From positions 1 to 64,000 of the IMG/VR virus record IMGVR_UViG_3300023202_000137: DNA of 64,000 nucleotides; one strand, written 5' to 3'. This stretch comes from a virus. The notes beneath the pieces are model-generated. The model had not been told where the DNA came from. It did not search any database and saw only the letters and a program-made list of their open reading frames with translations. Both the position numbers and the translations under genes were made by a program. Position 1 is the first letter of the stretch. Each line of letters begins with the position of its first letter. Below are positions 4,395 to 28,967 of the stretch, one piece after another.

Positions 4395-4666
4395 CGTAGC
4401 TTCTTTGTTAGCTCCGGTGGGAGCAACGGTAGTTCTTGCTGTACGCTCTGCCTCGGGTGCACAAAGCAGTAATGTGTATTCGGCCCCAGCTCGTGCGCGC
4501 ACCCTCTGCAGAGGGCGGCATCGCAGGTCTTGTTTTTAGACTTTGGGAAGTCACAAAGAAACCCTGAGTCCTCCCCGCAGAACTTGCACCCATCCGCGAC
4601 TCGCCGCTTCCCCCTATGGCAGACAAACCCAATACCCCCAGCAATCCTGACGCGCTCGCATGTCAC
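4391..4666 (-). CDS. Cys/His-rich zinc-binding conserved phage protein
   Basis: A protein of 91 residues with a dense Cys/His set: C3 in MTCERVRI, then FVCHRGKRR, CKFCGEDSGFLCDFP, KTCDAALCRGCAHEL and HYCFVHP. This array is typical of a conserved small phage/prophage family thought to bind two zinc ions. No enzymatic motif is visible. It overlaps the metalloprotease gene by four bases (ATGA). Confidence 0.7.
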   Translation of the reverse strand: MTCERVRIAGGIGFVCHRGKRRVADGCKFCGEDSGFLCDFPKSKNKTCDAALCRGCAHELGPNTHYCFVHPRQSVQQELPLLPPELTKKLR

Positions 4667-5250
4667 GCCGCCGACTCCACCCCGTACTGCTCCTGCAGAT
4701 ACACGCGGTCGGGCAACGTCACGCCGTACGCACCTTCAACTGCTGTTTCATACATCACTGAATCTTTGCCCTTGTCGTGGGCGAGTCCCGCGACGTGCCC
4801 AAGCTCATGTGCCAAGGCACGCTCGATGATTGCGCCGGACAACGTCGCAGCCATTCCCAGGTCGATGTAGACCGCAGCATCTACCATGCGCCCTTTGTCC
4901 ATCGTGATCCGTGTGTACGCCAAAGCGTGACACTTTCGGATCGACCCCCACCCATCCAGCCTCGATGCAGGCAGCACGGGAATGATCTTGCCAGTGCGCT
5001 CAACCTCTTCGGTGAACAACCCGGGAGTTGCTCGTTCCCAAAACTGCACCGCGTTGTGGATGTGCGGTCGAAGGTTGCCCGCTTCCTCATCGAGCATCAC
5101 AAGAAAAGGAATCGCCTTGGTTCCCCAAACTGTGATCTTGGTCAACGATGTCTTTTCGTCCTCTGGCCTCTTCACCACCACAACCGCAATAACCGTCGCA
5201 AGGATTCCCAACGACGCAACAATGACCGCAGTCCATTCAATGGCATTCAT
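4663..5250 (-). CDS. Membrane-anchored metzincin/matrixin-like metalloprotease
   Basis: A protein of 195 residues. Residues 7-27 form one N-terminal membrane segment (TAVIVASLGILATVIAVVVV). The rest carries the zinc-protease signature HELGHVAGLAHD at 148-159, matching HExxHxxGxxH/D, and a Met-turn candidate at SVMYE (M166). Established knowledge: this pair of motifs defines metzincins such as matrixins. The order suggests a small protease tethered to the membrane; orientation and substrate are unknown. Possible roles are superinfection exclusion, envelope remodelling or host protein turnover. It overlaps the upstream gene by 14 bases. Confidence 0.8.
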   Translation of the reverse strand: MNAIEWTAVIVASLGILATVIAVVVVKRPEDEKTSLTKITVWGTKAIPFLVMLDEEAGNLRPHIHNAVQFWERATPGLFTEEVERTGKIIPVLPASRLDGWGSIRKCHALAYTRITMDKGRMVDAAVYIDLGMAATLSGAIIERALAHELGHVAGLAHDKGKDSVMYETAVEGAYGVTLPDRVYLQEQYGVESAA

Positions 5251-5733: not shown

Positions 5734-5808
5734 CTACTTGGTCGCGCGACCACGCAAGGGGAGCCAACCCAACCGCCTCGTTGCGAGGCGACCGGCCAGC
5801 TTTACCAT
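5734..5808 (-). CDS. Possible micro-ORF, 24 residues
   Basis: ATG 5808 lies behind GGAGGGTAGGGC, a strong ribosome site. The basic 24-residue product starts MVKLAGRLATRRLGW. The coding stretch contains a perfect hairpin (5774-5790) and the palindrome at 5740-5751, so this could instead be a structured intergenic region. Confidence 0.3.
   Translation of the reverse strand: MVKLAGRLATRRLGWLPLRGRATK
5740..5751. repeat. Palindromic repeat GGTCGCGCGACC, copy 3
   Basis: This exact copy lies between the firmly called genes at 5547-5714 and 5812-6090, so it is not explained by a conserved protein sequence. Confidence 0.6.
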
Positions 5809-14242: not shown

Positions 14243-15329
14243 GACGGATACCCTCACCACGCTTCAGCGCTTGGTAGTGTGCTTCGTTCTCTTCTTGTGT
14301 GCGCGGTACGAATGAGGGGTGACCAGGCCCAACCCCTCTCGGGGTTTCTGCATGGCCTTGTTTAGTAGCTGCACGCACTTGCACCTGTCGTTTGTTGAGA
14401 AACATATTCACTCGGTTTTCGCTTTGGCAGATGTAGTCCAGCTCGTGTTTGCTGTGCTGCCTGTGCCATTGATCGTTCGCGTTCCCCTCAATAGCTTGCT
14501 TCAATTCATCCGCAGTGAATCCCTCTTTCAGTCTAGCTATAACTTTCTTGTAGGCACCGTTTCTCGATGCGTTGACCCCAGTCTTGACCCTCCGGTTTGG
14601 AAACTTCTGCAGGAAGTGGTCAACGACTGCTCGTGCATCTGCAGCGTAGTCAGATCCCCCTGGTCGCTCTGGTCGCTCGGCTTCGTCGTCCTCATCCGGG
14701 GGATCCTCTCCAGTGCGAGCCGCGCTCGCACTAAAGAGAGTTGGGTTGGGTTGGGAAGGGTTGGGTTGGGTAGGGTCAGGAAAGGAAGGGGAGGGTAGGG
14801 AAGGGGGTTCAAATCCGTTGGGCTTCCGTTCAGATCCGTTACCGCCCCGTTGAGCATCCGTCAACGCTTCGTTAACGGACCGTTCAGTGGTCTGTTTCTC
14901 CTGGTTTTTCCCTGGTTTACGCTTGGACCTTTTCTTCTTTTTGCGCGCTTTTACGCTCGCCTCCCCCCCCGTGCGGGCTGCTTGGCTTCGTTTTTCATAG
15001 CCAGCGAGCCAAGATTGGTGCTCCTCCCAATCGTGTATTTCGCGCTCGTTTTCGTCGCCGTCGAGGAACCCGCAGTTGACCAGAGCACGAACGAACACCC
15101 CTTGGTCGCGCGACCACTTTGATTGCAGCTCGATTTGACGGTCGGTCATTCCGTGAAGATTCCCGTCTCGTCGGTTGGGTTGTTTGCCGCAAAATTCCCA
15201 GAGTCGCTGGAAGCACACCACGGCATGGTCCCCCAGAACCATGTCACCGTCCCCACACTGGTCGCGCAGATCGTCGGTCTTGTAGTGGTCCAAGAAACCA
15301 AACCGCACGCGGAAGTCGTCGTTGCTCAT
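14235..15329 (-). CDS. Replication initiator / helicase-loader-like protein
   Basis: A protein of 364 residues. The N-terminal 115 (VRFGFLDHYKTDDLRDQCGD, FQRLWEFCGKQPNRRDGNLH) resemble a winged-helix phage replication organiser. A basic linker (KARKKKKRSKRKPGK) and a Pro-rich spacer (TQPNPSQPNPT) follow, encoded by a G/C-run tract. The C-terminal region (VKTGVNASRNGAYKKVIARL, then QHSKHELDYICQSENRVNMF) resembles the phage replication C-terminal domain that binds helicase. Position right upstream of the primase-helicase supports the role. Confidence 0.7.
   Translation of the reverse strand: MSNDDFRVRFGFLDHYKTDDLRDQCGDGDMVLGDHAVVCFQRLWEFCGKQPNRRDGNLHGMTDRQIELQSKWSRDQGVFVRALVNCGFLDGDENEREIHDWEEHQSWLAGYEKRSQAARTGGEASVKARKKKKRSKRKPGKNQEKQTTERSVNEALTDAQRGGNGSERKPNGFEPPSLPSPSFPDPTQPNPSQPNPTLFSASAARTGEDPPDEDDEAERPERPGGSDYAADARAVVDHFLQKFPNRRVKTGVNASRNGAYKKVIARLKEGFTADELKQAIEGNANDQWHRQHSKHELDYICQSENRVNMFLNKRQVQVRAATKQGHAETPRGVGPGHPSFVPRTQEENEAHYQALKRGEGIRRD
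14743..14817 (+). repeat. G-run tract with TTGGG repeats
   Basis: More than ten GGG runs separated by 2-4 bases on the plus strand, including TTGGGTTGGGTTGGGAAGGG. It codes for the Pro/Asn/Ser/Thr spacer of the initiator on the other strand. The arrangement could form G-quadruplexes. Confidence 0.6.
15104..15115. repeat. Palindromic repeat GGTCGCGCGACC, copy 4
   Basis: Exact copy inside the initiator gene, encoding part of KWSRDQG, the same WSRD codons as copy 1. Confidence 0.55.
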
Positions 15330-19393: not shown

Positions 19394-20929
19394 TCAAATC
19401 TCAAAGACAACATCGGTTGCAGAGTTGGGGCCGCTCACGTCATCGATCTGCATTACCTTGTCGCAGAAATTATCGAGCGCAGTCTCCCCACCCCAGCCAC
19501 CGATCTCGATGCCGTAGGTTCTAACTTCCTTCTGTGCGCACCGCCTGCGGAAGTCTTCCGCAAAGGATGTGCCTGCAGCACCGTCCGTGATCAGCACGAT
19601 GTCTGCTTTTGTGAACTGGTCCTCCTCCACAATCGTCAGTGCCTCTTTCAGCACTGGTTCAAAGTTGGTGCCTCCCCCACTGAAATATTCCATCAGCTCG
19701 CATACATGCTCCCAACTGGGTGGGTTGGGTCCACGCTCCCATACGAGTTTGCATCCTACCTCGGTGCAGAAGTGAAGGACGGCAAAGCTACGGTTTTCCT
19801 TGCGTGCGATGTCCAGCATCGCCAGGGCCACCGCTTTGCTCCACACTTCCCGGTCACCAGCCATTGAGCCGCTGTTGTCGATGCACACGACGATGGGCCC
19901 GCGGCCTTGGGGGGCTTGTCCCTTTAGCTCGTAATTGAGCAGCGACCGCTCCATGAGCCCCTGAAAGAACAGAGCCTCGAAGTCTGGATCGGATAGCTTC
20001 AGAGTTTCCACGGGGAGCAACCGTGCGAGGTCATCACCGTGGGTAATGTCTGAGATCTCATCACGCCGGTAGTCTGCTTTGCTTCGTTGCTGCGCTGCAG
20101 CTACTCGGCGCATTCGTCCCGCCAGCTCTGCAAGGGCCTTGAGCTTTTCTGACCTACCAACCCTCTCCATCAACTTTCGCTTCTGCTCAAGGTCCCCGCC
20201 ACGGCCAGCCGACCCAGACTCGTTGCCCCATCCGAAAGCGTCGAGCGTAGCCTGGGCCTGGTCGATGTCCGTGTTCGCCTTCTGAATCCCCTGGCGCATG
20301 GCGTGACGCATGGCCGAGGGGTCCATCTGTTGCTGGAAGTTCTGTGCAGTCTGTTGCATCTGTTGCATGCGCTTCCTGGCTTCTGCTTGCTCTGCCTCGC
20401 ACGGGACTCCAGCGGCCTGTAGTTGTTCATAGCCCTGCAGCAACCGCTCGACGCTTTGGCTGTCCCGGATCTGCTCCGACGGTTCCGGCAATGCCTGCAG
20501 AACTGACTCAGCAAGCGCAGTGCTGGACACACCGGACCATAGGCGGTCACCACGGCAACGGTCCTGCAGTCGCTTGAATTCGGGCAGCTCCTCGACTACC
20601 TCATGGGCTTGCTCTGCCCACCCGCTGGTGGGTCGAACATCCTCCGCTGGGAGTCGCTGCGCGTTCTCGGCATAGAGCCTGGTGAACACTTCTCGCATGT
20701 ACGCAGGCCAGCGCTCCATGCCCTTAGAGCCTTGGTCAGCCATCAGCGCAGCTTCTTCGCTGCCCTGCGCAAACTCAGAGTATTGGTACCGGTGCCACTT
20801 GTTCGTCTGGTACACGAGGTCAGAATCGACGCGCCGTTGCGAAGCGGTGGAGGGGCTGACTGCAGCAATAAGCCCATGCCCCGCCTGCTCTTTGGCGGCC
20901 TTGGTCGGGTCCCATAGTTTCCGTGCCAT
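19394..20929 (-). CDS. VWA-domain protein (ViaA/CoxE-like partner of the MoxR ATPase)
   Basis: A protein of 511 residues. The N-terminal 330 are helical and charged, with a Gln-rich stretch (RMQQMQQTAQNFQQQM). The C-terminal third is a von Willebrand A domain with an intact MIDAS: DNSGS (351-355), T421 in GGGTNFEP and D449 in LITDG. Established: MoxR/RavA ATPases act with MIDAS VWA partners as metal- or complex-loading chaperones. The ATPase gene ends one base before this gene starts. Target unknown. Confidence 0.85.
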   Translation of the reverse strand: MARKLWDPTKAAKEQAGHGLIAAVSPSTASQRRVDSDLVYQTNKWHRYQYSEFAQGSEEAALMADQGSKGMERWPAYMREVFTRLYAENAQRLPAEDVRPTSGWAEQAHEVVEELPEFKRLQDRCRGDRLWSGVSSTALAESVLQALPEPSEQIRDSQSVERLLQGYEQLQAAGVPCEAEQAEARKRMQQMQQTAQNFQQQMDPSAMRHAMRQGIQKANTDIDQAQATLDAFGWGNESGSAGRGGDLEQKRKLMERVGRSEKLKALAELAGRMRRVAAAQQRSKADYRRDEISDITHGDDLARLLPVETLKLSDPDFEALFFQGLMERSLLNYELKGQAPQGRGPIVVCIDNSGSMAGDREVWSKAVALAMLDIARKENRSFAVLHFCTEVGCKLVWERGPNPPSWEHVCELMEYFSGGGTNFEPVLKEALTIVEEDQFTKADIVLITDGAAGTSFAEDFRRRCAQKEVRTYGIEIGGWGGETALDNFCDKVMQIDDVSGPNSATDVVFEI

Positions 20930-20930
20930 G

Positions 20931-22109
20931 TTAGATCCTCACCCCTGCCAGCTTGGCTGCCTGGCGCTGTACCTCTTGGTGCATCTTGGCAACCTCGTCT
21001 GCAGCTTCCTTGAGTTTCCGCGCCTTGTTTGGATTGGACTGGATCGAATTCTGCAGCTCTGATTCCATGCGCTCGAATTCAGCGTTGGTCTCTGCCATCG
21101 CTGCAAGGCACTCAGCCTTGGGACGTGCGTCTGGGCCATCAGTCTGGGGCAGTTCCCGGAACAGCTCTTTTGCTGCGTCGAGAACCTCGCTTGCCTTGGC
21201 TGCCATTGGGTTAGCGACCTTCCCAACTTCCTGCACCAGCGTTGCCCGCTCTTTGGGTTCGCGCCAGAGAACGTCGGGCAAGATATCGAAATGATCCTCG
21301 CCCACTTCAGTGTCCCCGCATACGTAGGCAAACGCCTTGAGAACCTTGACTACCTTTTTCCAGCGACGGTCCGAGGCACGCACACCAGCTCGCTCCGTTG
21401 CAACCTTCACATCCAAGAGAACGTCCATTGCCCCCGGCTCCAGCTTCACTTGCTTGGCTTCTTTCTGCATGGCTTCGAGATCTGCGAGGGCTATGCTCGT
21501 TGCGATGGTGGGGTCTTTGCTCGTGAGCATCGCTTTCAAGTTGTCTCGATCTGAAATGGAATCGACCCAGTAGCGAAAGACGAAGCGATCAAAGAGGGCC
21601 TCCAGCTCCTCTGACTCGGGCAGCTCGTTGGAGGCGCCGAACATCGAGAGCAAGGGAACGTTGATCACTTGGTCGTTGTCGAATACGCGCTCATTCGCTA
21701 CGCGCAAAAGAGAGTTGAGTACCATCGTGTTGGCCTTCCAGATCTCATCGAGAAAAGCGATGTGCGCTTCGGGCAACTTGCGGTCGATCTTCCGCTCGAA
21801 GCAATCGTTCTTGAGCGCCGACACCTTGAAGGGCCCGAACAATTCTTCGGGTACGGACCCCTTGCCGAGCAAGCGCTCAAAGTAATTGGCTCCCTGGATC
21901 GCATTGCAGAGAACGCGAGCCAGGGAAGACTTGGCTGTGCCCGGGGGGCCCAGCAACAGGATGTGCTCGCCCGCGATGAGCGCAGCCAAGGCACCGTCAA
22001 TGATGTGGTTGCGCTCGTAGAACACTTGGCGCAGCTCGTTGCGCAAAGTGCCGAGGGTTTGCTGGTGGGTGGAGGGTACTGCTTGGATGTTGGTTTGTGC
22101 TTGTGACAT
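20931..22109 (-). CDS. MoxR/RavA-type AAA+ ATPase
   Basis: A protein of 392 residues. Walker A GPPGTAKSS (54-62), MoxR-type insert ERLLGKGSVPEELFGPFKVS, Walker B HIAFLDEIWKAN (116-127), sensor region FGASNELPESEELEALFDRF, and a C-terminal helical tail. Typical RavA/MoxR length for the AAA+ part. Together with the VWA gene it forms a two-gene chaperone unit; its position beside amidoligase and GGCT genes suggests the target may be the modified product. Confidence 0.87.
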   Translation of the reverse strand: MSQAQTNIQAVPSTHQQTLGTLRNELRQVFYERNHIIDGALAALIAGEHILLLGPPGTAKSSLARVLCNAIQGANYFERLLGKGSVPEELFGPFKVSALKNDCFERKIDRKLPEAHIAFLDEIWKANTMVLNSLLRVANERVFDNDQVINVPLLSMFGASNELPESEELEALFDRFVFRYWVDSISDRDNLKAMLTSKDPTIATSIALADLEAMQKEAKQVKLEPGAMDVLLDVKVATERAGVRASDRRWKKVVKVLKAFAYVCGDTEVGEDHFDILPDVLWREPKERATLVQEVGKVANPMAAKASEVLDAAKELFRELPQTDGPDARPKAECLAAMAETNAEFERMESELQNSIQSNPNKARKLKEAADEVAKMHQEVQRQAAKLAGVRI

Positions 22110-23106: not shown

Positions 23107-23649
23107 CTAATCGTCTAGGTGGTCCATTGCCCATGCGCAGTCGTCCCAGGATGGGTGGTAGAGTGGCGGAAACTCGCGCTTGGTCACTCGGGTACCCGGG
23201 GGCTCTGGCAGCGGCTTACCGAGGCGCTCAGCGCGTCTCCATAGGGGGTTTGATGTGTATCGAGCACGCCAAACTTGCAGATGCTCGAAGCGCCAGACCC
23301 CATCCGTCACGCGCTCCAGTCCATCGAAACCGCGCGACCACTGATAGCCCCAGGCCACTGCGCCAGATCTCAAGGTGATCAGCTCCCGACAGTAGACTTG
23401 GGGGTGACCCTCCCGACGGTCGAGAGCTACCAGGCCCTCCAGGTCCACATAGAGAAGCTCGCCAGCAACGAGCCCCTTTCCCTGGAAGTCCACGGCGGCC
23501 TGTCCTGTCTCCCGAAGATAGAGCGAGCCACGGGCCCAGTGCCGTCTCCGTCCTTCCTTCAGTGAGCCGTAGGCAAACACTCGGAACCGGCCCCGGTAGG
23601 CAGCACGGCGTAGGTTGGCTTTTGTCTGGGGCAATAGTTGTTTGGGCAT
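23107..23649 (-). CDS. Gamma-glutamylcyclotransferase-like protein (GGCT/AIG2 fold)
   Basis: A protein of 180 residues; ATG 23649 after GAAAGGACCACGAC. VFAYGSLKEG (24-33) is the GGCT substrate-loop motif, E80 in DRREGHPQVY fits the catalytic Glu, and AVAWGYQWSRGF matches the C-terminal strand. Established: GGCT-fold enzymes cyclise gamma-glutamyl amines to 5-oxoproline, and AIG2-like members pair with amidoligases. It lies directly downstream of an amidoligase gene. About 40 extra C-terminal residues have no assigned role. Confidence 0.78.
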   Translation of the reverse strand: MPKQLLPQTKANLRRAAYRGRFRVFAYGSLKEGRRRHWARGSLYLRETGQAAVDFQGKGLVAGELLYVDLEGLVALDRREGHPQVYCRELITLRSGAVAWGYQWSRGFDGLERVTDGVWRFEHLQVWRARYTSNPLWRRAERLGKPLPEPPGTRVTKREFPPLYHPSWDDCAWAMDHLDD

Positions 23650-23754: not shown

Positions 23755-24684
23755 TTACGCGGCGCTTTGCTTGTCGAATTTGGTGCAGAGGCGACGAAGC
23801 TCTTTGCGGTACTCTGCGACTTGCTCAAGATCGATAATCCCGAAGGCATCGCACTCAGGCTTGCCGGAATCCTTGCGGCCTAGCTTCCAACCCATGAGGC
23901 AGAAGAAGCGATTGATTGCCTTGCGAGCCTCGCCAGTGGTCTTGGTTTCGTATGCTTTGGTATCGGTGCGGTCCCAGGTAGCCTTGCGACCGAGAGCCCG
24001 CTCGCACATCGCGAGGCACATCGAAACCCAAGCAACCATCTTGAGGCCTTCGGTGGTACCGGAGAAGGCGCGGAACTCAACCGTATTGAGGCGGGTTCCG
24101 TTCACGTTCTGGAGATTCAGAAGGTGATAGCGCCCGCCATTGTTGATTGTTCCACCGCGAACGTGGCTGGCTTGCCCCTTGCGCACGCGCTCAGCCGCTT
24201 GCTTGTTCTGCTCGTTTCGGATGCTCTGGCACCACCGACCGTTCACTCGCTGAGCGGAACCAGCGGCGCCCCGGATGGCTTGCTCGAACTGAGCGACCAC
24301 GTTGGTCAGGTTGCCCACCCACTTTTGCTGGGCATTGGGCATCCGACCGGCTACAGACTCAACCCCGACGTGGACGTGGGTCCCGCAAGATCGGTTGGTC
24401 TTGAATCCGTTGGCGTTCATCCACTCAGCTACCTGCAACACCTGACGAAGGCCCTCAGCTCCCTTGAGGATAGGGGAGACAATTTCCATGGGCTGGTACC
24501 CGCTCAGGCTGGTGGAGAGCGAGCAATCAGTGTGTGCGTTCCACCCTTGGGGGAGGCCAGGAATCTGAGCGCCCGAGCGGTACCCGCCAATTCGAATCAG
24601 GCCACGGGGCATGAGGGTCTCAATCTCAATTCCGAAGGTGAAGTTGTGAGCTTGCTTGCTTGCGATTTGAACTTGCTTTGCCAT
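23755..24684 (-). CDS. Amidoligase (COOH-NH2 ligase of the glutamine-synthetase fold)
   Basis: A protein of 309 residues from ATG 24684, after AAAAGGACCAAGACC; the frame is open far upstream but that part crosses the promoter region. Family features: NFTFGIEIETLMP (E20, E22), HTDCSLS (D53), MEIVSPILKG (E67) and CGTHVHVGVE (100-109). Established: amidoligases join carboxyl and amino groups using ATP and are often coded beside GGCT proteins in phages and bacteria. Substrate unknown; candidates are a host protein, a cell-wall peptide or a virion protein. Confidence 0.85.
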   Translation of the reverse strand: MAKQVQIASKQAHNFTFGIEIETLMPRGLIRIGGYRSGAQIPGLPQGWNAHTDCSLSTSLSGYQPMEIVSPILKGAEGLRQVLQVAEWMNANGFKTNRSCGTHVHVGVESVAGRMPNAQQKWVGNLTNVVAQFEQAIRGAAGSAQRVNGRWCQSIRNEQNKQAAERVRKGQASHVRGGTINNGGRYHLLNLQNVNGTRLNTVEFRAFSGTTEGLKMVAWVSMCLAMCERALGRKATWDRTDTKAYETKTTGEARKAINRFFCLMGWKLGRKDSGKPECDAFGIIDLEQVAEYRKELRRLCTKFDKQSAA

Positions 24685-24734
24685 GGTCTTGGTCCTTTTC
24701 TTTGGGGGCTTTGTTGCCCCGTCCATCTGTAAAT

Positions 24735-24763
24735 AGAGTACGCGAATACCCGCATAGGGTCTA
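24735..24763 (-). promoter_or_regulatory. Weak promoter candidate for the amidoligase operon
   Basis: TAGACC (24758-24763) and TACTCT (24735-24740) on the minus strand are 17 bases apart. Match to sigma70 consensus is poor; a promoter in this 275-bp divergent region is expected from the layout. Confidence 0.25.
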
Positions 24764-24782
24764 CGACTTTTTTCGCTTTCGT

Positions 24783-24836
24783 GCACTTTTTTGTAAGTGC
24801 CTGTTTTTGCTAGGGAAATAGTGGCGAAATCCACTA
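24783..24836. promoter_or_regulatory. Two inverted repeats in the divergent promoter region
   Basis: GCACTT-N6-AAGTGC (24783-24800) and TAGTGG-N6-CCACTA (24819-24836). Both have 6-bp arms and 6-base spacers, with 36 bases between starts. They lie between the amidoligase operon and the plus-strand island and could be operators for the regulators coded next door. The gap 24685-24959 holds no gene I can support. Confidence 0.45.
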
Positions 24837-24861
24837 ATTTTAGGCGATCCAACCCCTCCCC

Positions 24862-24890
24862 TTGTCTATGTGGCTTCCCGCATATATATA
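24862..24890 (+). promoter_or_regulatory. Sigma70-like promoter of the plus-strand island
   Basis: TTGTCT (24862-24867), 17-base spacer, TATATA (24885-24890). It points into the GGCT, receiver and Fis-HTH genes. Confidence 0.6.
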
Positions 24891-24898
24891 GGAAGCAT

Positions 24899-24928
24899 GG
24901 CCCCAGGGGCCGGGGGGTGGTCCCCCGG
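24899..24928 (+). other. GC-rich leader hairpins
   Basis: GGCCC/GGGCC (24899-24911) and CCGGGGG/CCCCCGG (24910-24928) share two bases, so the stems compete. They occupy the 5' leader of the plus-strand transcript, about 30 bases before the first start. Confidence 0.45.
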
Positions 24929-24959
24929 AGATAGCCAGGGGCTTGGAAGGGACCAGACA

Positions 24960-25400
24960 ATGCGTTGCGTAGATTGTGGCGAGAGCTTGAGGGCAAAACG
25001 GGGGGTGGACCCCCACGACCATGGGTGGGGGCAGCGGTCCGACGATTGCTGGCAGTGCCCTGAGTGTTTCCATTCAGTGGACGGGCAACACCTGGTTTTC
25101 GTCTATGGTATTTTGAAGACAGCCGAGGTTGCCAACGATCCCCCACACTCTGCCGAGGGGCGGATGTACTGCAGTGGGATCGCGCTCGTTCGTTTTGACG
25201 AGCCCGGTTTGGTTCGTGGGCAGGTCCGCGCAGTGGACTCGGACACCCTCGCGAAATGGGATGGCATCGAAGGGATCTCCCACGGCCTCTACCAGCGCGT
25301 GCGCATTACGACGCGCGAGGGCGTGGACTGTTGGGCCTACCAGTTCAACCGGTCGGTCCAAGGCTGCCAAGTGATCAAGTCAGGCGTGTGGACGCGCTAG
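24960..25400 (+). CDS. Zinc ribbon fused to a second GGCT-like domain
   Basis: A protein of 146 residues, ATG 24960. The N-terminal 40 hold C3xxC6 and C30xxC33xxC36 (MRCVDCGES; CWQCPECFHS), a zinc ribbon. A GGCT core follows: HLVFVYGILKTAE (44-56), WDGIEGISHGLYQRV with E104 as candidate catalytic Glu, and VDCWAYQFNRSV. The substrate loop reads YGIL rather than the usual YGSL. Divergent from the amidoligase operon and from the first GGCT, so two GGCTs of separate type flank one amidoligase. Confidence 0.75.
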   Translation: MRCVDCGESLRAKRGVDPHDHGWGQRSDDCWQCPECFHSVDGQHLVFVYGILKTAEVANDPPHSAEGRMYCSGIALVRFDEPGLVRGQVRAVDSDTLAKWDGIEGISHGLYQRVRITTREGVDCWAYQFNRSVQGCQVIKSGVWTR

Positions 25401-25401
25401 C

Positions 25402-25415
25402 GTTTCACGTGAAAC
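25402..25415. promoter_or_regulatory. parS-like ParB-binding site
   Basis: GTTTCACGTGAAAC is a perfect 14-bp palindrome equal to the core of the bacterial chromosomal parS consensus TGTTTCACGTGAAACA (outer bases here are C and C). It starts one base after the GGCT stop and ends 20 bases before the receiver start. Chance of this exact 14-mer in 64 kb is below one in a thousand. No parA or parB gene is seen in the window, so a host ParB would be the reader. Confidence 0.8.
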
Positions 25416-25435
25416 CTATGCTAAGGAGTGCAGAT

Positions 25436-25792
25436 ATGAGCGCAAAAACTCGCGTTCTCTTTGTAGATGACGACTCGATGATGCTCCGCGCAGTCGTTCG
25501 GATATTCAGAAACCAGGAGCGATGGGAACTCATCACAGCTCAAGACGCTGAAAGCGCGCGACCACATCTCGCCTCGGTGGATGTGGTAGTAACTGATTGG
25601 GATCCTTCGGGCGCGGCGATGGTCGCCCTCTGCAGGAAGCACGGTCTACCGGTGGGGGTGGTGTCTGGCCGCGCGGTCGGGCAAGATGACTCGGAAGCCG
25701 GGGAACGTGAGCGCCGTCAGCTCGACGGTGCTCCGTTCATCAGCAAGCCTTTCCAGCGTTCTGAAATGGTCGAGTTTCTGGAGTCGTTATGA
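25436..25792 (+). CDS. CheY-like response-regulator receiver protein
   Basis: A protein of 118 residues, ATG 25436 with AAGGAG seven bases upstream; the longer open frame is read-through of the GGCT gene. All receiver residues are present: D11/D12 in VLFVDDDS, phospho-acceptor D54 in VVTDWDPSG, S77 in GVVSGRA and K104 in FISKPFQ. No output domain. Its stop overlaps the Fis-HTH start (ATGA). Established: receivers are phosphorylated by histidine kinases; no kinase is seen here, so a host kinase or acetyl phosphate would be the donor. Confidence 0.87.
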   Translation: MSAKTRVLFVDDDSMMLRAVVRIFRNQERWELITAQDAESARPHLASVDVVVTDWDPSGAAMVALCRKHGLPVGVVSGRAVGQDDSEAGERERRQLDGAPFISKPFQRSEMVEFLESL

Positions 25793-26169
25793 CGCTACAG
25801 GAACAGGTCGAGGCTTTCGAGAAAAGCCTGATCGAACGGACGTTGACCATGACGGACGGCAACGTTCGCGCATCAGCAAAGGCCCTGGGCACGGCAGAAC
25901 GAACACTGTGGGACAAGCTCGGGAAGCACGAGATCGACCCCAAGGTCTTCCGGCCCGGGGCCAACCCCGATGCCGCAGGTATCAAACGGGTTGCCCTCTA
26001 CGTGAGCACCATGATCGAGCACTTCAAGGAACTCAACCTCGACTCGGCCATGTGCGACCTAGACGATCTGAGTGACCGCCTCTACTACGGTGGGTGGAAA
26101 ACCGAGGACCCACGGACAGCCGCCGCCGTCTCGCGAGCCCTCATCACTGGGTCACTTGAGCATCTCTAA
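25789..26169 (+). CDS. Fis-type HTH protein, output half of a split response regulator
   Basis: A protein of 126 residues, ATGA-coupled to the receiver gene. Residues 10-48 (EKSLIERTLTMTDGNVRASA, then KALGTAERTLWDKLG) match the C-terminal Fis-like HTH of NtrC and RegA/ActR regulators. The remaining 75 residues (RVALYVSTMIEHFKELNLDS) are helical and unassigned. Receiver plus Fis HTH without AAA+ is the RegA/ActR layout, here as two proteins. Its stop overlaps that of the convergent gene by four bases. Confidence 0.78.
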   Translation: MTLQEQVEAFEKSLIERTLTMTDGNVRASAKALGTAERTLWDKLGKHEIDPKVFRPGANPDAAGIKRVALYVSTMIEHFKELNLDSAMCDLDDLSDRLYYGGWKTEDPRTAAAVSRALITGSLEHL

Positions 26170-26561
26170 CCGGGAGAAGCCACGGCATACATAATGCCAA
26201 CGGTGACCCCAACTCCTGCACCAAAGGCTAGCCCGTACTTCAGCACCAGCCCTGGGGTCGAATCCCAGAAGCCTGGGGTTTTGATTTCCTCAACCTCCCG
26301 TTGCTCGCAGGCTCCTAGGTCGCGCGAGCACGACTCCAGGTCTTTGCCCATGACCGAGATCTTCTCGAAGTCCTCGCGGTGTAGAAGGTACGCCTTGGGG
26401 TAGAGCTTCAGCTCACCTCCACGTTTCCCCTTCACATCGCGCAGCACGGTAGGGGCAAAATACTCGGGCCACTCTTGGGCGGGTTCCTCTGCAGCCGCGC
26501 TAGTCGCGACGACCAAACACCCCAGCAACGTCGTCCAGAAGCTCCTCGTCGTCCATCGCAT
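26166..26561 (-). CDS. Secreted/membrane protein, possible spanin partner
   Basis: A protein of 131 residues. N-terminal export signal (RSFWTTLLGCLVVATSAAAEE) with LLGC as a possible lipobox or an SAAA-E cleavage site. A charged middle with CSRDLGACEQREVEEI, then a C-terminal membrane segment (LVLKYGLAFGAGVGVTVGIM). It overlaps the 26500-26745 gene, as Rz1 genes overlap Rz, but the C-terminal membrane segment is not typical of Rz1. Lysis role is inference. Confidence 0.55.
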   Translation of the reverse strand: MRWTTRSFWTTLLGCLVVATSAAAEEPAQEWPEYFAPTVLRDVKGKRGGELKLYPKAYLLHREDFEKISVMGKDLESCSRDLGACEQREVEEIKTPGFWDSTPGLVLKYGLAFGAGVGVTVGIMYAVASPG

Positions 26562-26745
26562 CAGCGTCGTCCTTTGCCTTGTAGTGTTCCAGCTCGCGCT
26601 GCAGTTCCAGGCGAGACTTTCGTTCGAGCGCGTGTTGCTCTGCCACCTTGCGCAACTTCCAGTGGAGGATAGCTATCCACAAACCGCCACCCCCACCCAA
26701 GAGCAGCACGAGTATCACGACCCCTTTTACTGAGTCACCGTCCAT
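26500..26745 (-). CDS. Small membrane protein with coiled coil, Rz/i-spanin-like
   Basis: A protein of 81 residues from ATG 26745 (MDGDSVKGVVILVLLLGGGG). Membrane segment at about 8-28, then a coiled coil (RKSRLELQRELEHYKAKDDA) and acidic end. This N-in, single-pass, coiled-coil layout is that of inner-membrane spanins. Lies between terminase and the gene above. Confidence 0.58.
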   Translation of the reverse strand: MDGDSVKGVVILVLLLGGGGGLWIAILHWKLRKVAEQHALERKSRLELQRELEHYKAKDDADAMDDEELLDDVAGVFGRRD

Positions 26746-26746
26746 C

Positions 26747-28423
26747 TCACATCCCAATCACACGCATTCGCATGCTTAGTTCTGGTCCGTCTTCCTCGTC
26801 CTCGTCTTGCTGAAACTGAGCCAGTGCATTGATGGCTCGCAGGCAAGCGTTTACGAACGCGTCCACCATATCGTCATGTCTCGCCAAGGGGAACTTGGTC
26901 AGCTCCCCGATTAGGTTTCCTTTTTCCTTCACGAACCCAAGTCGCTCGGGGTCCATGTTCGGGTGAAAGAGAATATCTCCGCGCTCGATGTATGGTGTGA
27001 TTCGCTTGAGTCGCGACATTTTATCGACTCTCGGTCGCATTCGAACGATAGGCAGTTGAGGTACGCGACGAACCTTGCGCATTTCAAGCGTCGTAGACCC
27101 ATCGCTGGAAACAGACTTCTCCCATCCAAGATCTCTGAACGAGCGGTTTGCGATGGTGTCCAGGTATTGAGGCAGTGAGTCCTGATAAGCGATGGCCTCA
27201 ATTGCGACTTCTTCTGACGTGTGGAGCATGAAGTCTTCAACAACGTGGCGAGCTTGATTATCGAACGTCGTTTTTGTGTGGTACGCATCTGTCACGTAGA
27301 TCTTCCCAAGTTCAAAATCCACGTACACGGTAGCCGAGGCAAAAAAGTCTGCTTGTTTCTTTTGGGAGATCGCCAGGTCGTAGCCGGAATATGGAACGAC
27401 GTGCTCTGCAAGTTTCTTTGGGTCGAAGTATTCGATCCAGTCCTCGTCAACGACAATAATCTCCCCGGACAAAGCCTGGTTTCGAAACGCTCGATTGAAC
27501 TCTACGCTCCCAATTTCTTGTTCGCGCTCTTTCAGTGCAGCGGTGTGCCAGTGCTCCTCCCATAAACCCTCGGTCCACTTTTTGGGTTTGCGGTTTTTTC
27601 CAGGCACGCGGTACTCAACGTCGAAGCCGTCCACGTCGTCGTTGACTGCGTACATCAGGCAAGCGTACGCAGGGTTCTCCATCAGCACGTGGCTGTTGTC
27701 GTCAGTGTGCCAAAGGGTGCAGATGTAAACGATACGACCATCCGGCTCTAGCAGGTTGGTCCAGTCTGACTTCCATGCGTGCTTGATTGTCTCGCGGATT
27801 TGGGGGTACTGGATTGCGTTTCGTCGGTCTACGATGTCGTCTGCAATGAGTAGGTCTGCACGACCACCGGTTGCAGTCGAGAGAATCCCTAGCGCCTCAA
27901 TGCTCGCATCTTTCGAGAACAGATCACGCTCAACGACTACCTTGTGCTTTGTCCAGTCGCCGCGCTGTGCTGGCTTCAGATGCGGGAACACTTTTTGGAC
28001 GCGCTCGTTGCGCTCCATGTGGTCAGTGATTTCAAATAGCCGCTCCATCGCTTTGGAGTCTGACTGGCAGGCAATCTTGATACGAAGGTTTGGGTTATTT
28101 CCAAGTTCCCACAGCACGCGACCCACGGGAATCTGCGTAGTCTTGCCGTGGTCACGAGGGGCGATGATCATTGCACGCTGGTATCCGTTTGGATTCCAAG
28201 TAGGGTGCTTGACCTGACGCTGCCAGTTCCGGTGGAACTGTTGCTGCTTTAGGTTCTTTCCGCTCTTGTCTGCAAAGACGTACTCAATAAATGCGTTGGG
28301 ATCTTCGCGTGCGGCCTCAATCTGCAGCTCCTCGTTGAGCGCACGGATCTTGAGAACGAGGTCGTGTAGCTGCTCTAAGTCATCTTCAGACTGTGCGGCT
28401 CGAATTGCTTTTTCGAGCCGCAC
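26747..28423 (-). CDS. terL: Terminase large subunit
   Basis: A protein of 558 residues from GTG 28423; a CTG-initiated extension is possible. ATPase: MIIAPRDHGKTTQIP (Walker A variant), ADLLIADDIVD (Walker B) and YICTLWHTDD (motif III region). RNase H-type nuclease: GYDLAISQKKQADFFA and HDDMVDAFVNA near the C-terminus supply the acidic metal ligands. Established: this motor packs DNA into the prohead and cuts it. No certain small terminase gene is seen; the genes at 29576-29923 or 1-698 are candidates. Confidence 0.9.
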   Translation of the reverse strand: MRLEKAIRAAQSEDDLEQLHDLVLKIRALNEELQIEAAREDPNAFIEYVFADKSGKNLKQQQFHRNWQRQVKHPTWNPNGYQRAMIIAPRDHGKTTQIPVGRVLWELGNNPNLRIKIACQSDSKAMERLFEITDHMERNERVQKVFPHLKPAQRGDWTKHKVVVERDLFSKDASIEALGILSTATGGRADLLIADDIVDRRNAIQYPQIRETIKHAWKSDWTNLLEPDGRIVYICTLWHTDDNSHVLMENPAYACLMYAVNDDVDGFDVEYRVPGKNRKPKKWTEGLWEEHWHTAALKEREQEIGSVEFNRAFRNQALSGEIIVVDEDWIEYFDPKKLAEHVVPYSGYDLAISQKKQADFFASATVYVDFELGKIYVTDAYHTKTTFDNQARHVVEDFMLHTSEEVAIEAIAYQDSLPQYLDTIANRSFRDLGWEKSVSSDGSTTLEMRKVRRVPQLPIVRMRPRVDKMSRLKRITPYIERGDILFHPNMDPERLGFVKEKGNLIGELTKFPLARHDDMVDAFVNACLRAINALAQFQQDEDEEDGPELSMRMRVIGM

Positions 28424-28448: not shown

Positions 28449-28967
28449 CTAGCCAGATGCCGCTTCCTTTTTCTTTGCCTCTTCCTTTTTCTCGCGCTTG
28501 TTCATTAGGAGGTTAGCTATCGACTCGTGCTGCGCAATCGCAGTTGGCCCGGTAAAGACTCCCACCATGATAGCTTCGACGGGAGAAGCTCCACCTAGGA
28601 TGGATGCGAGGACCCCAGCAACTCCGCCTAGTACGATAGGTATCGCGGTGCGCCAGCGTTTAGGAATCTTCTTTGTCACACCCCCCAACATGGGCAAGCG
28701 AAACAAGTTTCCGAGCAGCATGATGAGAGTGCCAGCAATGCCAATCCAAGATCCGGTGCGCACTGCATTCACGAGATCACCAGCACTCTGCAGGGTTTCT
28801 GGAAGCGTGGACTCCCCTTCCATGTCTGCAGGTGCTGGCGCTGCAGGTTCCGCCGCTGCAGAGGCGGTAGCTTCTTGCGCGTACGCAACCGGCACCACCT
28901 CTGCAGGATGAGGGTTTACGCTGAACGCGCCCAATGCGAGGGCGAGGGACAAGAACAATCGCTTCAT
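28449..28967 (-). CDS. Exported multi-pass membrane protein, holin-like
   Basis: A protein of 172 residues. Signal peptide (MKRLFLSLALALGAFSVNP...), Ala/Pro/Glu spacer, then SWIGIAGTLIMLLGNLF and AIPIVLGGVAGVLASILGG as membrane segments, and a Lys/Glu-rich cytoplasmic-type tail (NKREKKEEAKKKEAASG). Position upstream of terminase with other membrane genes suggests lysis; not a textbook holin. Confidence 0.55.
   Translation of the reverse strand: MKRLFLSLALALGAFSVNPHPAEVVPVAYAQEATASAAAEPAAPAPADMEGESTLPETLQSAGDLVNAVRTGSWIGIAGTLIMLLGNLFRLPMLGGVTKKIPKRWRTAIPIVLGGVAGVLASILGGASPVEAIMVGVFTGPTAIAQHESIANLLMNKREKKEEAKKKEAASG

Follow-up and report, generated by a model that had tools for sequence, protein, structure and literature searches.

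A putative kinase-less, two-chain response regulator encoded by a phage

Two adjacent, translationally coupled genes in a virus genome encode a single-domain receiver and a Fis-type helix-turn-helix (HTH) protein. Judged from their sequences, the two may act together as a kinase-less two-chain response regulator of local gene clusters, a reading that we hold tentatively and rate a little short of evenly probable. Phage sensing of peptides, of quorum signals and of DNA damage is known, and through a kinase-less response regulator a phage could read whatever host kinases signal. The pair, which is small and has candidate operators nearby, is directly testable.

The analysed window comprises bases 1-64000 of an IMG/VR virus record of 90,757 bases, the remainder of which was also read. 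The record's first bases recur from 90,575 to its end as a 183-base terminal repeat, so the genome is probably complete at about 90.6 kb. It carries myovirus genes (tail sheath, baseplate wedge, portal, major head protein, holin and terminase) as well as replication and recombination genes (primase/helicase and a Sak4-like annealing protein), and no tyrosine integrase domain was found in the record. The minus strand carries almost every predicted gene, and 24960-26169 forms a small plus-strand island that contains the pair (Table 1).

Table 1. Features of the receiver-HTH locus and its surroundings (window coordinates)
Feature	Position	Strand	Basis
VWA protein, ViaA-like	19394-20929	-	ViaA model 7.5e-33, below its cut-off
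MoxR ATPase, RavA-like	20931-22109	-	bpMoxR 2.8e-52; RavA model 9.2e-63, below its cut-off
Second GGCT/AIG2 protein	23107-23649	-	Pfam 1.9e-10
Amidoligase_2, first gene of divergent cluster, candidate regulated gene	23755-24687	-	Pfam 9.1e-23
Inverted repeat GCACTT-N6-AAGTGC, candidate operator	24783-24800	.	Exact, divergent intergenic region
Inverted repeat TAGTGG-N6-CCACTA, candidate operator	24819-24836	.	Exact, divergent intergenic region
GGCT/AIG2 (gamma-glutamyl cyclotransferase-like), first gene of plus-strand cluster	24960-25400	+	Pfam GGACT 2.3e-10
GTTTCACGTGAAAC, perfect 14-bp parS core	25402-25415	.	Between GGCT and receiver genes
Single-domain receiver, 118 aa	25436-25792	+	Pfam, tblastn, residue alignment
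DctD/NtrC-type Fis HTH protein, 126 aa	25789-26169	+	Pfam, alignments to DctD-like regulators

The receiver and its coupled HTH partner

An initial annotation of this DNA had described two open reading frames joined by an ATGA overlap, and reading of the sequence confirmed both frames and their coupling: the receiver stop and the HTH start overlap at 25789-25792, a Shine-Dalgarno sequence (AAGGAG) lies upstream of the receiver gene, and GGAG lies a few bases ahead of the HTH gene ATG. The phosphotransfer residues on which that annotation based an active receiver are likewise all five present by direct count (D11/D12, with a further D13, D54, S77 and K104), and alignment to CheY and four other receivers places them at receiver positions. 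Residues 7-115 match Response_reg (PF00072) with E=3.3e-6 over model positions 1-110 of 111, at a score of 27.7 bits that falls just short of the curated cut-off of 30.2. The only other Pfam match was a weak one to Transglut_core. By tblastn, a response regulator of a Deinococcus plasmid matched over the full length at 33.6% identity (E=8e-6). The nearest relatives found share roughly 26-36% identity and comprise regulators of the OmpR type from Deinococcus and mycobacterial plasmids together with a Microvirga receiver that carries no annotation. In a single-sequence fold of low confidence (pLDDT 64), REC domains rank first with an E-value that is not significant.

Like CheY and DivK, the phage receiver is free-standing with intact phosphotransfer residues; unlike them, it is translationally coupled to a DNA-binding protein and departs from them in spacing. 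By direct count, D54 and S77 are 23 residues apart as compared to 30 in CheY, and S77 and K104 are 27 apart as compared to 22. The beta3-alpha3 segment is thus short and an insertion precedes the lysine, so the alpha3/alpha4 regions are remodelled, and with them part of the usual output face. The protein looks like a divergent receiver of the single-domain type that could be phosphorylated.

The second gene had been assigned a Fis-type HTH, and this holds: HTH_8 (PF02954) matches residues 7-46 with E=4.4e-7 and 30 bits, above the curated cut-off of 22. Residues 2-56 resemble the C-terminus of DctD-like sigma54 activators, and the NCBIfam matches are mostly to sigma54 activators. Identity to a plasmid-borne E. 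coli DctD-like regulator is 29/62 (47%) and extends through the tail that follows the HTH (KHEIDPKVFRP in the phage protein, KHQIQPQVYRP in the regulator), while identity to a plasmid-borne Methylobacterium regulator is about 45-46%. The tail pattern L-Y/W-DKL..H....YR is typical of DctD. Neither phage protein has a Pfam match to the AAA+ domain Sigma54_activat. The C-terminal part of the HTH protein, about 70 residues (57-126), matched nothing and is predicted to be helical at very low confidence; the single-sequence fold of this protein (pLDDT 44) was too poor to use. GC3 is coding-like in both halves of the gene.

The phage pair shares with RegA/ActR/PrrA a receiver and a Fis-type HTH with no AAA+ domain, and the initial annotation had called it RegA-like. 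That part of its interpretation is not supported, in that the HTH and its tail are of the DctD/NtrC type, the regulator is two chains rather than one, and the HTH is followed by some 70 residues, whereas in RegA the HTH ends the protein. The RegA/ActR-type structure 3rqi was the sole match in a PDB search, at a weak E=0.6. As compared to DctD/NtrC regulators, the phage pair lacks the AAA+ domain, carries its receiver on a separate chain and has the additional residues after the HTH. There is also no similarity between the phage receiver and that of the plasmid-borne DctD-like protein that matches the HTH. Derivation of the pair from a DctD protein by loss of its AAA+ domain is therefore unsupported for the receiver half, and the pair seems to have been put together from two sources, not derived by splitting one.

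Other elements of the initial interpretation, namely a receiver that looks phosphorylatable, an HTH partner coupled to it and no kinase of the phage's own, agrees with what was found. The two genes give the sole Response_reg and the sole HTH_8 match in the 90.8-kb record, and no HATPase_c or Hpt match was found in it, so the phage may read host signalling.

Facing gene clusters and candidate operators

The plus-strand GGCT gene ends thirty-five bases upstream of the receiver gene, and its product contains two N-terminal CxxC pairs (CxxC...CxxC by direct reading), possibly a zinc ribbon. Facing it is a divergent cluster of amidoligase, GGCT, DUF6744 and MoxR/VWA genes, and the amidoligase gene is thus flanked by two GGCT/AIG2 genes. 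PHROGs includes both the amidoligase and the GGCT families, and PADLOC identified no defence system in the cluster. MoxR-VWA pairs occur in phages, where a role as virion-assembly chaperones has been proposed (PMC7824862).

The region between the two clusters contains the inverted repeats that the initial annotation had pointed out; both are real and exact, and both share a 6-6-6 geometry. Two repeats with the same geometry arose in 0.0005 of dinucleotide shuffles of this intergenic region, a frequency that rises to 0.04 when any spacer of 4-8 is counted. The likeness of their half-sites to those of the NtrC type is only loose. Since exact repeats unlikely to arise by chance lie between the two clusters, the most economical target of the regulator is next door, and the repeats at 24783-24836 are the best candidate operators. 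A promoter scan of 24500-26800 returned none above threshold.

Under the mechanism we propose, a host histidine kinase or a small phosphodonor would phosphorylate the receiver at D54, and this would alter DNA binding by the co-translated DctD-type HTH protein, which would bind DNA probably as a dimer. As it has no sigma54 AAA+ domain, the HTH protein would occupy or bend DNA, resulting in repression or sigma70-type activation, rather than open sigma54 promoters. The divergent intergenic repeats would be its most likely targets, and the pair would control its own GGCT-receiver-HTH cluster together with the facing amidoligase-GGCT-DUF6744-RavA/ViaA cluster. We infer the phosphorylation, the receiver-HTH interaction, the operator, the targets and the host kinase from sequence. 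A role in lysis, as suggested initially, finds weak positional support: the 3' ends of the HTH gene and of a small convergent gene, whose product has a signal-peptide-like start, overlap by 4 bp, and a holin-like gene (28449-28967) lies 2.3 kb from the pair. The divergent amidoligase/GGCT/RavA-ViaA cluster is, however, a more direct regulatory target than lysis.

Relatives and alternative readings

The pair appears to be rare. Scans of viral contigs with the receiver, the HTH protein, the terminase and MoxR yielded no relatives of the pair, and genome contigs queried with the HTH protein gave none either. When each protein was compared by tblastn with 50,697 phage records, no match reached significance, and a viral-contig search with a DctD-type HTH alignment produced no confirmed viral relative. 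Across these viral, phage, plasmid and genome collections, no homologue of the pair or of either whole protein was found, and no close homologue of the receiver. A search with the sheath protein identified two related phage contigs, both fragments; one of these fragments was searched for the receiver and none was found, and the sheath alignment gave no match in genome contigs, which were searched for a host. Of a sample of 50 phage records, which were selected by parS and hence are not a random set, one has a receiver (record G047, L134:1384-1797, an unrelated phage). This receiver is phage-encoded and single-domain like the receiver described here, to which it is weakly similar (E=0.02), but at 137 aa it lies beside a lysozyme-like gene and has no HTH partner. 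Among the titles and abstracts listed in literature searches on phage-encoded response regulators, none offered a precedent for a split pair.

The G047 receiver would also fit a reading in which the two genes are co-transcribed and their products work apart, the HTH protein as a constitutive local regulator of the divergent clusters and the receiver as a CheY-like adaptor or phosphate sink on a host pathway. The closest relatives of the two proteins do differ, and the extra C-terminal part of the HTH protein could mediate dimerisation or form a ligand site. Separate action is nevertheless rather unlikely in our estimate; no other receiver or Fis-type HTH was found in the 90 kb, and these two adjoin and are translationally coupled, which argues for a joint function. 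Alternatively, a frameshift or an assembly error could have interrupted what was one receiver-HTH gene, as both the gene order and the -1 overlap would be compatible with a fused response regulator and the locus is known from one copy. In the HTH frame, however, a TGA stands nine codons ahead of the ATG, so that a frameshift would have to fall within the eight sense codons between them; the HTH gene starts from a GGAG-ATG of its own; and the receiver ends where its last helix ends, which would leave a fused form almost linkerless. The upstream in-frame stop, the Shine-Dalgarno sequence and the natural domain ends thus favour two real genes, and we regard a broken fusion as improbable.

A reading of both proteins as defunct remnants taken up from a host is similarly doubtful. 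Their sequences are divergent and no relatives were found that would show purifying selection, yet the frames are open, the ribosome sites are good, the catalytic residues are all kept, and the coding composition of the pair (codon-position GC) is typical of the genome. The receiver might instead be a phosphoesterase of the cRec type, as proposed for jumbo phages, rather than a signalling receiver; divergent phage Rec domains with conserved aspartates have been reported in association with NAD/ADP-ribose and RNA repair genes (PMC7824862). No cRec-type Pfam model matched the phage protein, no NAD/ADP-ribose or RNA ligase gene was present among the neighbouring genes tested, and the protein has the serine and lysine that round off the residue set of a signalling receiver. 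With both the family match and the gene linkage not found, this identity was rejected as very improbable, and a kinase-less two-chain regulator is the reading we retain.

A parS core and other sequence features

The 14-mer GTTTCACGTGAAAC is the chromosomal parS core, which has T...A flanks in the 16-bp parS consensus. It sits 20 bp before the receiver start and is expected 2e-4 times per genome of such size. It occurs at least 148 times in viral contigs. Among the occurrences listed, 94/148 carry the T...A flanks and the sites avoid long ORFs, so in viruses the 14-mer is mostly true parS. The copy described here has C...C flanks, seen in 1/148 of the occurrences listed, and is thus a weaker candidate. 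No ParA-type AAA_31 or ParB_N domain was found in the phage record. ParB_N was also without a match in 45 of 50 viral records with the 14-mer, many of them fragments, and within this set a parS site is commonly unaccompanied by ParB. It seems quite unlikely that this modification and chaperone cluster is tied both to host two-component signalling and, via parS, to host ParB.

Elsewhere in the genome, a small protein encoded at 4663-5250 has a matrixin-like match (Peptidase_M10, E=1.6e-6). The palindrome TGGTCGCGCGACCA is repeated at 2274-2287, 5739-5752 and 15103-15116, mostly in the early region, with shorter forms at 2311 and 29671 and, outside the window, at 88890 and 89520 of the record; these palindromes may form a family of operators to which a phage repressor binds.
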